The notes below the pieces were generated by a model. It searched no databases. It was not told the DNA's origin and saw only the letters and a program-made list of their open reading frames with translations. This document shows, one piece after another, positions 36,804 through 40,366 of a stretch of DNA of 64,000 bases. The number at the start of each line of letters is the position of its first letter. Position 1 is the stretch's first letter. Source of the stretch: Yoonia maritima (GTDB lineage Bacteria > Pseudomonadota > Alphaproteobacteria > Rhodobacterales > Rhodobacteraceae); NCBI RefSeq assembly GCF_003003285.1, contig NZ_PVTP01000005.1:1-64000 (forward strand), read 5' to 3'. A program made the translations under genes and the position numbers.

Positions 36804-36855
36804 AAAATCTGTGCGAACCTACCTTTAGGCGAAATTTTTGAAAGGAGGTGATCCA

Positions 36856-36912
36856 GTGCATCATGAGGTATTGGAGAAGTGTGTCGGGACAACTTGTGGG
36901 GGTCGCAGCTAG
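36856..36912 (+). CDS. possible 18-residue leader peptide
   Basis: GTG start seven bases after GGAGG; product VHHEVLEKCVGTTCGGRS, with two Cys and three Gly. No family known. Its ribosome-binding site is the best imaginable (17 nt anti-16S), which favours real translation. It may act as a sensing leader rather than a functional protein. Confidence 0.35.
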   Translation: MHHEVLEKCVGTTCGGRS

Positions 36913-36977
36913 GGCAGCCCTTGGCTGAGAAGATCACAAGGTGGAGATCCTAACCGACCCACCTCCGAAAATCAGAG

Positions 36978-37011
36978 AAGGGCTATCCCAACGCCGGGGT
37001 AGCCCTTTTTC
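36978..37011 (+). terminator. rho-independent terminator of the leader unit
   Basis: AAGGGCTA and TAGCCCTT form an 8-bp stem around a 14-base loop, followed by TTTTT. Confidence 0.85.
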
Positions 37012-37104: not shown

Positions 37105-37518
37105 ATGCGGGTCAACGATCAGATCGAAATCGCCGATTGGGAACTGACCGAAAGCTTTACGCGCGCGTCCGGGCCGGGCGGGCAGAACGTGAACAAAGTA
37201 TCCACGGCGGTCGAGTTGCGGTTCGAGGCGGCGCGGTCACCCAACCTGCCCGACCCCGTGAAAAACCGACTGCGGCGGCTGGCGGGGCAACGGTGGACGA
37301 AAGACGGGGCGATTGTGATCTTTGTGCAGGAAACCCGGTCCCAAGCCCGCAACCGCGAAATCGCACGGGAGCGTCTGGCCGAACTGATCCTAAAAGCAAC
37401 CGAGCGACCCAAACGCCGCGTCGCAACCAAACCAACCTATGGGTCCGTCAAACGCAGACTCGCAGGGAAGAAAGCGCGTGGTGAGGTGAAGGCGTTAAGA
37501 GGGAAGGTTGAGGAGTGA
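37105..37518 (+). CDS. arfB: ArfB, alternative ribosome-rescue factor
   Basis: 137 residues, peptidyl-tRNA hydrolase of the class-I release-factor fold. The GGQ motif is in ASGPGGQNVNKVSTAVELRF (near 21-40). The C-terminal tail is Lys/Arg-rich (KRRLAGKKARGEVKALRG) and enters the empty mRNA channel of stalled ribosomes. It rescues ribosomes lacking a stop codon, a back-up to tmRNA. It is preceded by the repeat array and leader RNA and followed by the AT-rich islet. Confidence 0.95.
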   Translation: MRVNDQIEIADWELTESFTRASGPGGQNVNKVSTAVELRFEAARSPNLPDPVKNRLRRLAGQRWTKDGAIVIFVQETRSQARNREIARERLAELILKATERPKRRVATKPTYGSVKRRLAGKKARGEVKALRGKVEE

Positions 37519-37520
37519 CA

Positions 37521-37542
37521 ATGCTATCTTACCTGATAGCAT
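37521..37542. promoter_or_regulatory. perfect hairpin/dyad at the islet's left edge
   Basis: ATGCTATC and GATAGCAT with a 6-base spacer (TTACCT), two bases after the arfB stop. No T-run. It could be an operator of the ATPase gene that starts 26 bases later, or a boundary mark of the islet. Confidence 0.5.
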
Positions 37543-37568: not shown

Positions 37569-39056
37569 ATGAAGATACGTGATTTTAACTTTGGCGACTA
37601 TTCGGGCATGCGCGAGTACAACAGAAATCCAGAGTTTTTCATGAACTCTTTTATAACTCCCGGCCTATTCTCACTGAACTCCCTACAGAACGGTGCAAAT
37701 AATATTCTAGTTGGCCGAAAAGGCACAGGCAAATCGTCTTGCTGCTTGGCCCTTGCTCACATGAAAAAAGCTGAGGGGTACTTATCAACATTTTACAACT
37801 TTTCAGATGATTTGAATCGCAACGATCTAAAAGAAGCCGTCCAAACTCAAGCATTAGACCTTAAAGACGTCGCGGGCCTGACTAAGCTCTTTGATTCGAT
37901 AAGTAGCTTTTATGATTTTAGAGATTTATGGAAGCGGCGAGTTATTTCACAAATTGGAAAACGCATTACAGATAGCGGCAAAAAATCTACCTTTACTGAT
38001 TTTGCCACCAGCGTTCACCTCGCCGAAACAAGCATAACCAGCGGCGTTGGAAAAGGGCTTGTAATTGACAAACCTAAGATGACTGGCAAGCTAGCTGAAA
38101 TGCTAAATTCGCTTTTCCCCGATAGAGCTACAATGAGTCTTCGAGATTTCAATAGCATCGGATTGGATTTGTTAAAGCAATGCCATTCAGATGTAAAACA
38201 CTACTTCTTTTTTGATGAATTAAACCTAAGCCACACCAAGTCAGATTCGTCAGAATACGAAACTCTTCTAGCGCTAGTAAGGGATATTATCAGAGCAGCT
38301 TGCGAGCTTAATGACTTTTTTTCAATGAATAATATAGATGTTCATATCATTTGTTCCATTCGGCCAGAAGTTCGAAATGAAATTATTTCTCGAGACAACG
38401 AATTAAGCAAAATTATTGATTCAAATTTCGTAAGTTTAAGCTGGCCAAACCATGCTAAGGTAGAAAATCCATTAATTGAGTTGATGTTAAAGAAAATGCA
38501 GTTCGGTGGCGATTTTTCTGAGGTACCAACCACTCTAATCCCTGAAAAAGTGTACAATGTCGTTGAACAGAAAGACGTTCTTTTCCCACAATACTTATTA
38601 AATTTAACTTGGTACCGGCCAAGAGATGTCATCAGGGTGCTGAAGTGCTATCAAATCACAAATGGGAATATGGCATCTCTCTTCGAAAAAGGTGATGATC
38701 AGCTAAAATTTTTAAAAGAATATTCTAGGGTCAGCTTCCAAGATACTGTCGCAGAATTGGAAGTGAAGTATTCAAAAGAGATAATAAAAGAGTTGTTCTT
38801 GAGAATTAAGAAACCTGCCTTCAGAGACAAGAACGAGTTACTGGCTCACCTTGATGTACTCTCGAACAGAGTGCCATCGCTTGACGAACTCATTAAAGAC
38901 CTTTTTGATACAGGTGTTATTTTAAATTACCAGAGCGGCAATGGCGGGTTTAGCATCTTGGCGTCCTACCGTGATGACGCTGAATTGGACCCTTCTCTTC
39001 GCATTATCATTCACCGCGGACTGCGATCGCACTTGAATATTTCTTTCAACAATTAG
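37569..39056 (+). CDS. P-loop ATPase, Sll1717-like family, AT-rich islet gene
   Basis: 495 residues. Walker A GRKGTGKSS at 49-57 (the VGRKGTGK form of the Sll1717-type P-loop ATPases), Walker B HYFFFDELN near 211-219 and a sensor-like strand HIICSIRPE near 276. C-terminal half is helical with a winged-helix-like end (DELIKDLFDTGVILNYQ..). No signal or membrane segment. The composition is clearly AT-richer, with codons such as TTA, ATA and AGA, than both flanking genes, a sign of transfer. Such ATPases with large unknown C-terminal regions recur in defence islands; activity is not proven. RBS AGGGAAA. Confidence 0.8.
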   Translation: MKIRDFNFGDYSGMREYNRNPEFFMNSFITPGLFSLNSLQNGANNILVGRKGTGKSSCCLALAHMKKAEGYLSTFYNFSDDLNRNDLKEAVQTQALDLKDVAGLTKLFDSISSFYDFRDLWKRRVISQIGKRITDSGKKSTFTDFATSVHLAETSITSGVGKGLVIDKPKMTGKLAEMLNSLFPDRATMSLRDFNSIGLDLLKQCHSDVKHYFFFDELNLSHTKSDSSEYETLLALVRDIIRAACELNDFFSMNNIDVHIICSIRPEVRNEIISRDNELSKIIDSNFVSLSWPNHAKVENPLIELMLKKMQFGGDFSEVPTTLIPEKVYNVVEQKDVLFPQYLLNLTWYRPRDVIRVLKCYQITNGNMASLFEKGDDQLKFLKEYSRVSFQDTVAELEVKYSKEIIKELFLRIKKPAFRDKNELLAHLDVLSNRVPSLDELIKDLFDTGVILNYQSGNGGFSILASYRDDAELDPSLRIIIHRGLRSHLNISFNN

Positions 39057-39074
39057 AACCGCTGAGCTACACCC
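39057..39074 (-). other. tRNA 5'-end remnant at the islet's right edge
   Basis: On minus: GGGTGTAGCTCAGCGGTT, the acceptor start and D-arm of a tRNA. The rest of the tRNA is absent, and the fragment starts within the pncB stop region and ends at the ATPase stop. It looks like a leftover of a tRNA gene used as integration site. Confidence 0.5.
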
Positions 39075-40366
39075 TAAACCACCACCTCAACCCGCTCTTG
39101 CTCGCCCACGCCAAATACCTGTTTGTAGCGTGCGATTTCCTCGGATGGTCCCATCGCTTTGTTGGGGTTGTCCGACAGTTTCACGGTGGGGCGTCCGTTG
39201 GCCGCGACGGCTTTGCACACGAGGCTGAACGGCGCGAGCGCGTCGCCTGCGGATAGCCCCTTGAAGTCGTTGGTCATCATTGTCCCCCAACCAAAGGACA
39301 CCCGCACGCGCCCGGCGAATTGGCTATGCAGTTCGAGGATTTTATCCACGTCCAGCCCATCCGAGAAGATGACGAGCTTTTTCGTCGGGTCTTCGCCACG
39401 GGATTTCCACCAGTTGATCGCGTTTTCGGCCCCGGTGGCCGGGTCTCCGCTGTCGATCCGCATTCCTGTCCAGCCCGCGAGCCAATCGGGCGCCCGGTCA
39501 AGGAACCCTTTGGTTCCGAATGTGTCGGGCAGGATGATCCGTAGGTTGCCGTCGTGCTCTTCTTGCCAGTCGGACAGCACGTCGTAGGGCGATTGCAGCA
39601 GTTGCGCGTCTGTATCGGCGAGCGCGGCATAGACCATGGGCAATTCATGGGCGTTTGTGCCGATGGCCTCGATCTCTCGCATCATGGCGATCCGGCAGTT
39701 TGACGTGCCGGTAAAGCTGTTGCCGAGCCCTTCCATCATCGCCTGCACGCACCAATCCTGCCAGAGGTATGAATGCCGGCGGCGCGTACCGAAGTCGGCG
39801 AGTTTCAGGCCCTCGATTGGTCGCAGTTGTTCGACCTTTTCCCACAGTTTCGTCATGGCGCGGGCGTAGAGCACCTGAAGTTCAAACCGCCCCATGTCGC
39901 GCAGCACGGCCCGCGACCGTAGTTCCATGATCGTCGCAAGCGCGGGGATTTCCCACAGCATGACCTCGGGCCAAGAGCCTTCGAAGGTGAGTTCGTACTG
40001 CCCGTCCTTTTTCTCGAGGTGGTAAGGGGGGAGTTGGAGGTTCTCGAACCACTCCATAAAATCAGGCCGGAACATTTGCCGTTTACCGTAGAAGGTGTTG
40101 CCGCGCAGCCAAGTGGATTCACCGCGCGTCAGCCGCAGAGAGCGGATGTGGTCAAGCTGCTCGCGCAGTTCGCCTTCGTCGATCAGTTCGGCCAGCCGGA
40201 TGGTTTTGGTCCGGTTGATCAGGGAAAAGGTGACTTGGGTGTTTGGATGGTTCCGAAACACCGACTGGCACATCAGCAGCTTGTAGAAATCCGTATCGAT
40301 GAGCGACCGCACGATCGGGTCGATCTTCCATTTGTGGTTCCAGACTCGTGTTGCGATATCGACCAT
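39074..40366 (-). CDS. pncB: PncB, nicotinate phosphoribosyltransferase
   Basis: 430 residues. Family opening SLIDTDFYKLLMCQSVFRN near 21-39, the FGTRRRHSYLWQDW stretch near 194-207 and GTSNCRIAMM. It converts nicotinate and PRPP to nicotinate mononucleotide in NAD salvage. With pncA 64 bases upstream in the same direction, it takes the deamidated product of nicotinamide. The ATG is followed by the conserved N-terminal region. Confidence 0.96.
   Translation of the reverse strand: MVDIATRVWNHKWKIDPIVRSLIDTDFYKLLMCQSVFRNHPNTQVTFSLINRTKTIRLAELIDEGELREQLDHIRSLRLTRGESTWLRGNTFYGKRQMFRPDFMEWFENLQLPPYHLEKKDGQYELTFEGSWPEVMLWEIPALATIMELRSRAVLRDMGRFELQVLYARAMTKLWEKVEQLRPIEGLKLADFGTRRRHSYLWQDWCVQAMMEGLGNSFTGTSNCRIAMMREIEAIGTNAHELPMVYAALADTDAQLLQSPYDVLSDWQEEHDGNLRIILPDTFGTKGFLDRAPDWLAGWTGMRIDSGDPATGAENAINWWKSRGEDPTKKLVIFSDGLDVDKILELHSQFAGRVRVSFGWGTMMTNDFKGLSAGDALAPFSLVCKAVAANGRPTVKLSDNPNKAMGPSEEIARYKQVFGVGEQERVEVVV

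Follow-up and report, generated by a model that had tools for sequence, protein, structure and literature searches.

Core-genome defence hotspots are described for P. aeruginosa (PMC10250203) and E. coli (PMC10121019), and in the accessible parts of both reports fixed flanks enclose interchangeable anti-phage systems. The interval between arfB and pncB that we analysed here likewise keeps its flanks and varies its content. However, compared with the hotspots as those parts of the two reports present them, our slot usually holds one or two genes, no mobility gene was seen in it, its boundary lies at the pncB stop, terminal DNA of the flank gene appears to go along with the cargo, and it recurs in many genera of one bacterial family. 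The P-loop ATPase that occupies it in our DNA is in kind a resident of a defence hotspot, which is a known type of arrangement; the slot itself looks new, sharply bounded and extended over many genera. In the literature covered, with most subscription papers outside its scope, we found neither a description of a pncB slot nor a function for the Sll1717 family to which the ATPase belongs.

Integrative elements also occupy the 3' ends of genes, as SGI1 does at trmE. As for elements of the SGI1 type, the target of our islet would be the terminal bases of a housekeeping gene that stays intact; unlike them, the islet has no integrase and no duplication of an attachment site. Concerning the protein, ATPases of the ORC/Cdc6 clade (BrxC, BrxD, SspC and others) belong to defence systems, and, as far as the available portions of the sources go (PMC12839542, PMC10853773), BrxC and BrxD of BREX and SspC of Ssp have an AAA+ core in which inserted helices follow strand 2, and a C-terminal part resembling a winged helix, features that ours appears to share in its predicted model. 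Unlike the BREX and Ssp ATPases, ours is a lone gene: arfB and pncB enclose no partner from BREX, Dnd or Ssp. The NCBIfam model NF047389, which our ATPase matches over its full length, states no function.

We consider it fairly probable that the islet is one occupant of this slot, that its product is an AAA+ anti-phage ATPase, and that the cassette is exchanged together with flanking DNA without an integrase. Judged by comparison, the slot, common to the bacterial family, is bounded by the pncB stop and lies between the convergent arfB and pncB; foreign AT-rich cassettes, usually of one or two genes and including many defence genes, succeed one another in it and bring no integrase. Composition, slot, turnover and family membership come from comparison and the fold from prediction, and we infer the defence role and the transfer.

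The ATPase gene and its relatives

The gene (37569..39056, + strand) encodes 495 amino acids. Its GC content of 0.397 and GC3 of 0.417, against 0.614 and 0.710 in arfB and 0.592 and 0.759 in pncB, agree with the AT-rich base and codon use remarked in the initial annotation, and its GC is the lowest among 53 ORFs of 150 aa or more that were called mechanically across the window, that is, the whole 64,000-nt stretch of DNA analysed. It is the single gene-sized ORF between arfB and pncB, accompanied by a 96-aa antisense ORF inside it. The identity and motifs first proposed for it held up as well. NF047389 (P-loop ATPase, Sll1717 family) was matched at 174.3 bits, for a cut-off of 75, by residues 8-489 over profile positions 1-454 of 454. 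The P-loop GRKGTGKSS is present, with Walker A GRKGTGKS at residues 49-56 (37713..37736, +), as is Walker B, HYFFFDEL with its FFFDEL core, at residues 211-218 (38199..38222, +). In the 17-member alignment A2, G49, G52 and K55 of Walker A and D216 of Walker B are invariant, and so are R265, T347 and P351-D353; R265 would be a candidate sensor arginine. Judged by its sequence, this is a real gene, foreign and AT-rich.

A protein search found the ATPase once in its own genome, where a profile search gave one extra 24-bit match on another contig, far below the cut-off; a protein scan of genome contigs returned no relatives. The four neighbours scanned (arfB, pncB, isochorismatase and the Vut_1 transporter) contained no recombinase, in line with the early remark that no transposase or integrase lies nearby. 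Against the PADLOC defence models the ATPase matched nothing at 0.001, the best being PtuA at 0.04, and a weak N-terminal resemblance of residues 22-113 to the anti-phage model NF053860 DS41_1 scored 21.8 bits, below its equivalog cut-off of 370. A sequence search of solved structures gave a single match, with E 0.75.

The AlphaFold2 model (pLDDT 83.0, pTM 0.83, with weak segments at 91-111 and 153-163) predicts an AAA+ core followed by a C-terminal winged-helix-like part at about residues 403-490. The top VIA match was Cdc6 1fnn (Z 13.6, rmsd 4.2, 251 aligned), and the next ones were Cdc6/Orc1, TnsC (12.4), the archaeal Walker-type ATPases 2qen and 2fna (12.2-12.3), plant NLRs and CED-4; lower matches included Avs5 (Z 10.4) and RdrA (10.3), together with p97, an unrelated AAA+ protein, at 10.1. 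The matches in a viral fold library were mainly replication factor C and other ATPases. From the model, the protein is likely an AAA+ ATPase near the ORC/Cdc6-STAND-TnsC group, and it is probably a virus-defence protein. Its assembly would depend on ATP, its winged helix would sense or bind the nucleic acid of an invader, and either phage replication would be blocked or the infected cell would be stopped.

Vertical presence in all related genera, which would speak against acquisition, is not what we observed: any match to the ATPase occurred in 4 of 194 relative genomes, and 40 of 394 genomes of the bacterial family matched NF047389, 21 of them above the cut-off, our own genome being included in both counts. 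Three Sll1717 ATPases are known to abut pncB, namely ours and those of G195 and G011. The one in G195, from another genus (locus L198), is 46% identical, is separated from arfB by about 2.1 kb of other DNA, and is encoded by a gene with a GC of 0.43-0.46 versus 0.70 for its genome and genus. Its Walker A reads GRKGTRKS (L198 6008-7504), a change of Gly to Arg, such that this ATPase may be inactive. The one in G011 is distant and abuts pncB in the opposite orientation, with no arfB in the fetched stretch; its membership in the Sll1717 family was deduced from the second Sll1717 match among the cargo ORFs described below. Most family members are found elsewhere: among 22 other ATPase stretches, that of G195 included, the latter alone also holds pncB, and in G308 a 49%-identical ATPase lies beside gyrB. 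At 22 of 23 other loci, too, the DNA around the ATPase gene is less AT-rich than the gene itself.

Relatives of the ATPase are carried by 2 of 50,697 phage records and 2 of 72,556 plasmid records. The Sll1717-like ATPase of Lactococcus phage CAP (L218 8001-9473) lies behind the lysin gene; that of a Peduoviridae Klebsiella phage (L219 5992-7503) lies between the tail-completion and baseplate genes. Both are accessory genes of these phages and belong to phrog_13260, a family without assigned function. Phage genes in such places are often of use to the lysogen. Around other Sll1717 members, 79 ORFs matched 93 PADLOC families, a count that has no matched control, with strong single matches to SAVED and cyclase proteins and to PD-Lambda-1; as a pointer to defence, these sequence matches are no more than suggestive.

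An exchange slot between arfB and pncB

The fixed right flank of the slot is pncB, the nicotinate phosphoribosyltransferase gene (39074..40366, − strand), which 367 of the 394 genomes sampled from the bacterial family possess. The usual left flank is the arfB-like RF-1 domain gene (37105..37518, +). Within the fetched stretch it comes after pncB at 24 of 35 loci of the genus and, in other genera, at 29 of 40, and it is usually followed by the Vut_1 transporter gene. These 75 unselected loci exclude duplicates and loci obtained by motif or ATPase searches, and the 40 from other genera were drawn from the top of a list ordered by pncB similarity and are not a random sample. They comprise 31 loci with AT-rich cargo, 10 with a GGDEF gene, 3 nearly empty, 30 without a GC drop and 1 at a contig end; the genus accounts for 17 AT-rich, 10 GGDEF, 7 other loci without a GC drop and the contig end, and the other genera for 14 AT-rich, 3 nearly empty and 23 without a GC drop. 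Judged by comparison of the loci, the same flanks with different cargo show that the pncB-arfB interval is an exchange slot across the bacterial family.

The reading of our locus as a horizontally acquired single-gene islet gains from two observations on relatives. Close relatives with about 94-95% nucleotide identity in pncB carry unrelated cargo at the same junction: our ATPase in one case, a dCTP deaminase in another (L113 and L080, one locus), and glycosyl- and pyruvyltransferase genes with GmrSD in a third (L035). Nearly empty junctions, with the arfB and pncB stops 31, 40 and 140 bp apart, occur in three other genera (L130, L138, L143). The cargo stop overlaps that of pncB by 4 bp in 28 of 64 cases, the 28 including two duplicate pairs (L080/L113, one locus, and L045/L052, with the same cargo); its value as proof of site-specific insertion is weakened by the same overlap in 11 of 73 other convergent pairs, where it is the sole overlap type of up to 8 bp.

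We then asked what the slot contains in 52 cargo ORFs (alignment A1), of which 51 are distinct, L080 and L113 being one gene. Thirty of these proteins (29 distinct), picked for size and variety, were scanned with Pfam, which identified deaminase domains in 4 (3 distinct), RT in 2 and the OLD-like AAA_15/AAA_21 in 2, with AAA_15 with OLD-TOPRIM among the matches, and in one protein each GmrSD, DndB, PAPS reductase, HATPase, HD, MrcB with HNH, IrrE and transglycosylase. SIR2_2 and NYN matched one protein each just below the cut-off, the ATPase of L043 had AAA-type matches only, all below cut-off, and a second IrrE protein was present in L060. Some cargo genes are neighbours, as DUF433 beside DUF5615 and a nucleotidyltransferase beside a protein with pentapeptide repeats. 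No recombinase was found among the 30 proteins, and 7 of them had no Pfam family. The transglycosylase (L144) and the glycosyl- and pyruvyltransferases (L035) are not defence-like.

In the NCBIfam scan of all 52 ORFs, the names among the best 25 of 76 matched families included the anti-phage dCTP deaminase in 4 ORFs, 3 of them distinct (best 2.4e-139), Drt2 (2.7e-109), HalA (6.6e-94) and HalB (3.6e-52) of Hailong, DndC (2e-71) and Sll1717 in 2 ORFs. The cargo ORFs matched 254 PADLOC families versus 10 for 52 control ORFs, chosen mechanically at least about 4 kb from pncB, and these controls may include non-genes, so the contrast is exaggerated. As in a defence hotspot, then, the cargo is rich in known defence genes according to the NCBIfam names and to PADLOC with its mechanical control, and the defence-type cargo that the initial annotation proposed as the likely class is supported by these and the Pfam matches. 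The gene names GGDEF, Vut_1 transporter, GyrB, DXP synthase, kinase, PP2C and glycosyl/pyruvyltransferase were checked against families; those of genes outside the family-library scans are our own reading.

Because named anti-phage genes share the slot with proteins without a Pfam family (7 of 30), residents with no assigned role, the ATPase included, become strong and cheap candidates for new defence genes. The fixed and easily recognised flanks make the slot minable genus by genus, and the Sll1717 family, known by a locus name, would gain a testable function.

On the far side of arfB, the stretch 36832-37006 (+), between the Vut_1 transporter gene and arfB, weakly matches the Caulobacter sRNA CC2171 over the full model (38 bits, gathering threshold 75, E 7e-6), and a similar sequence is visible at the same position in L046 and L048.

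The islet edges and the 3' end of pncB

The perfect dyad claimed for the left edge is present just 3' of arfB, at 37521..37542, with 8-bp arms ATGCTATC (37521-37528) and GATAGCAT (37535-37542) and a 6-nt loop; the folding z-score of the surrounding 61 nt is only -1.73. At the right edge, a truncated tRNA 5' end had been proposed, making the locus a tRNA-anchored genomic islet. The 18-nt string GGGTGTAGCTCAGCGGTT does exist (39057-39074, minus strand) and looks like a tRNA 5' end, but we rejected it as a tRNA remnant and regard such an anchoring as hardly credible. ARAGORN detected no tRNA between pncB and arfB in 35 loci, 33 of them pncB loci, and no further copy of the string with up to 2 mismatches occurs in its own genome. 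A tRNA has 7 acceptor nucleotides before positions 8-9, and the string offers 5, two short, unless the pncB stop codon is counted. Moreover, the frame after the TAG stop of the ATPase reads AAC CGC TGA GCT ACA CCC TAA; the final TAA (39075-39077) overlaps the pncB stop, and the 46%-identical ATPase of L198 ends at the same overlapping stop. Since the string extends the ATPase frame as far as the stop of this relative, we infer that 39057..39077 (+), which includes it, was a C-terminal tail of the ATPase lost by a nonsense change. We also discarded a tRNA-Arg of G308, which lies about 600 bp from the 49%-identical ATPase and has a different 5' end. The sequence comparisons support the 3' end of pncB, and not a tRNA site, as the fixed edge of the slot.

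Unexpectedly, the last 15-45 bases or so of pncB appear to track AT-rich cargo, an association that the locus comparisons support without settling it. In the 25 genus loci without a GGDEF gene, the last pncB codons are mostly GAG GTT GTG GTT TAG, GTT occupying codon -3 in 19 loci and codon -1 in 23, while at the GGDEF loci they vary freely; in our DNA this end is CGGGTTGAGGTGGTGGTTTAG (39074..39094, −). GTT is a rare choice in pncB, where 431 valine codons at conserved positions divide into 29 GTT, 214 GTG, 174 GTC and 14 GTA. Over the 75 unselected loci, mismatches to GAGGTTGTGGTTTAG correlate with the GC drop (rho -0.59), whose mean is 0.123 at 0-1 mismatch (n=31) and 0.006 at four or more (n=27; p=3.4e-7). 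Phylogenetic contrasts (74 tips) gave r=-0.34 for the C count (p=0.0033) and r=-0.25 for the mismatches (p=0.031), and upstream control windows were not significant by contrasts (p=0.67, 0.13 and 0.11), with a raw rho of +0.32 (p=0.005) at codons 40-46. A binary sister-pair test of pncB end against cargo was negative (8/16, p=0.28); this test and the 80-locus table used below took in loci from motif or ATPase searches, and the contrasts were rerun on the 75 loci without these.

The signature includes a loss of C. In a set that includes motif-ascertained loci, the third-position C in codons 1-3, 4-7, 8-11 and 12-15 from the stop was 0.02, 0.04, 0.12 and 0.20 with AT-rich cargo, versus 0.32, 0.16, 0.22 and 0.42 without a GC drop and 0.40, 0.25, 0.25 and 0.38 with a GGDEF gene; it is thus nearly absent from the last codons and recovers over about 45 nt. 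In the same set, G minus C in the last 30 nt of pncB was 0.40 with AT-rich cargo, 0.24 without a GC drop and 0.15 with GGDEF. No such C loss was seen at other gene ends in the same loci. The direction of the cargo is irrelevant: in the 80-locus table, the mean third-position C of the last 7 codons was 0.16 and 0.27 for the two orientations, versus 1.88 for other loci.

Some individual loci bear on how the pncB end and the cargo are joined. In G005 (L035 1569-5776), pncB is followed by pyruvyl- and glycosyltransferase genes, a 140-bp pncB 3' fragment, a GmrSD-like gene and arfB, such that two motif copies flank cargo; the fragment is more similar to the pncB of L113 (0.908) and to ours (0.901) than to its own (0.865). 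In G008 (L048 3280-5646), a protein kinase and a PP2C phosphatase gene are inserted between arfB and the Vut_1 transporter gene, and this insertion holds, away from any pncB context, a near-copy (1 mismatch in 19) of the pncB-end sequence. G036 has two copies on separate contigs, and an ectopic copy in G002 turned out to be the terminus of a DXP synthase gene. Across genomes, ectopic copies are no commoner than matches to a reversed control, and we give weight only to those of G005 and G008, because of their position. In 5 of 8 close pairs with different cargo, the final 60 bp of pncB are less identical than the next 60 bp by at least 0.05, as in L036/L071 (0.77 versus 0.97); the GGDEF-GGDEF pair L046/L048 is also lower by 0.05, and as sequence evidence this drop appears weak. 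Two further candidates were set aside: an 18-mer scan of viral contigs for a phage attP gave 7 matches in AT-rich contigs without pncB, which we read as chance, and the GGGCGC.. repeats around the glycosyltransferase genes of G005 are not general.

Taking together the contrasts, the G005 fragment, the G008 near-copy and the differences between close pairs, we take these data to mean that cargo travels with the neighbouring pncB end, through either ordinary recombination nearby or a dedicated recombinase. Under the explanation that we prefer, the cassette would be transferred within chromosomal DNA, for instance by transduction or by gene transfer agents, which occur in this bacterial family, and recombination close to the cargo would bring the last tens of pncB bases along. 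A dedicated recombinase acting in trans on a true attachment site at the pncB 3' end, inserting cassettes and replacing the last 15-45 pncB bases with their own copy, seems to us possible but improbable. It would account for the rare GTT at codons -3 and -1, for the mismatches that track the GC drop, in raw correlation and in contrasts, for a signature present whichever way the cargo gene points, and for the copies in G005 and G008. Nevertheless, neither the 30 Pfam-scanned cargo proteins nor our islet provide a recombinase or integrase; no second motif copy with up to 3 mismatches exists in our genome, and so no direct repeat at the arfB end of the islet; the viral contigs gave chance-like matches only; and the sister-pair result and the stop overlaps of other convergent pairs also weigh against it. 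In its boldest form, in which the pncB 3' end would be the docking site of undescribed integrase-less defence cassettes of one or two genes, moved family-wide in trans by a putative recombinase, each arrival rewriting the last 15-45 pncB bases while the enzyme still works, the proposal is doubtful. Were the pncB-end signature an attachment site, it would help to explain how integrase-less single-gene islets move.

The poverty in C admits another reading, in which the antisense RNA of the pncB end would be a Rho-dependent terminator that shields pncB from cargo transcription and was selected after the cargo arrived. The scarcity of third-position C and the highest G minus C with AT-rich cargo, together with the intact C of other gene ends in the same loci, agree with it, but the order GTT-GTG-GTT is more specific than avoidance of C and the signature is the same when the cargo points away from pncB; we think this quite unlikely. 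As to the protein, its ORC/Cdc6-like predicted fold, the relatives on two phages and two plasmids, and the lack of a named defence model above cut-off would suit an ATPase that has no part in defence and is either selfish or serves plasmid or phage maintenance, left over from the replication or partition functions of a former prophage or plasmid. This too we hold to be unlikely, if somewhat less so than the terminator, given that the neighbours of the two phage copies are lysis or structural genes, not replication genes, that named defence genes fill the slot in several relatives, and that no phage or plasmid gene lies alongside the ATPase between arfB and pncB.

Two loci show additional irregularities. 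In G021 (L058 10184-10996), two separate arfB 3' fragments lie beside a 510-aa protein without a Pfam match, and TGTAGGCGCGCG occurs both at the edge of one of them and at that of the pncB fragment of L035. In G016 (L067 286-4190), pncB, arfB and the Vut_1 transporter gene each match in two pieces, perhaps as a result of assembly errors.
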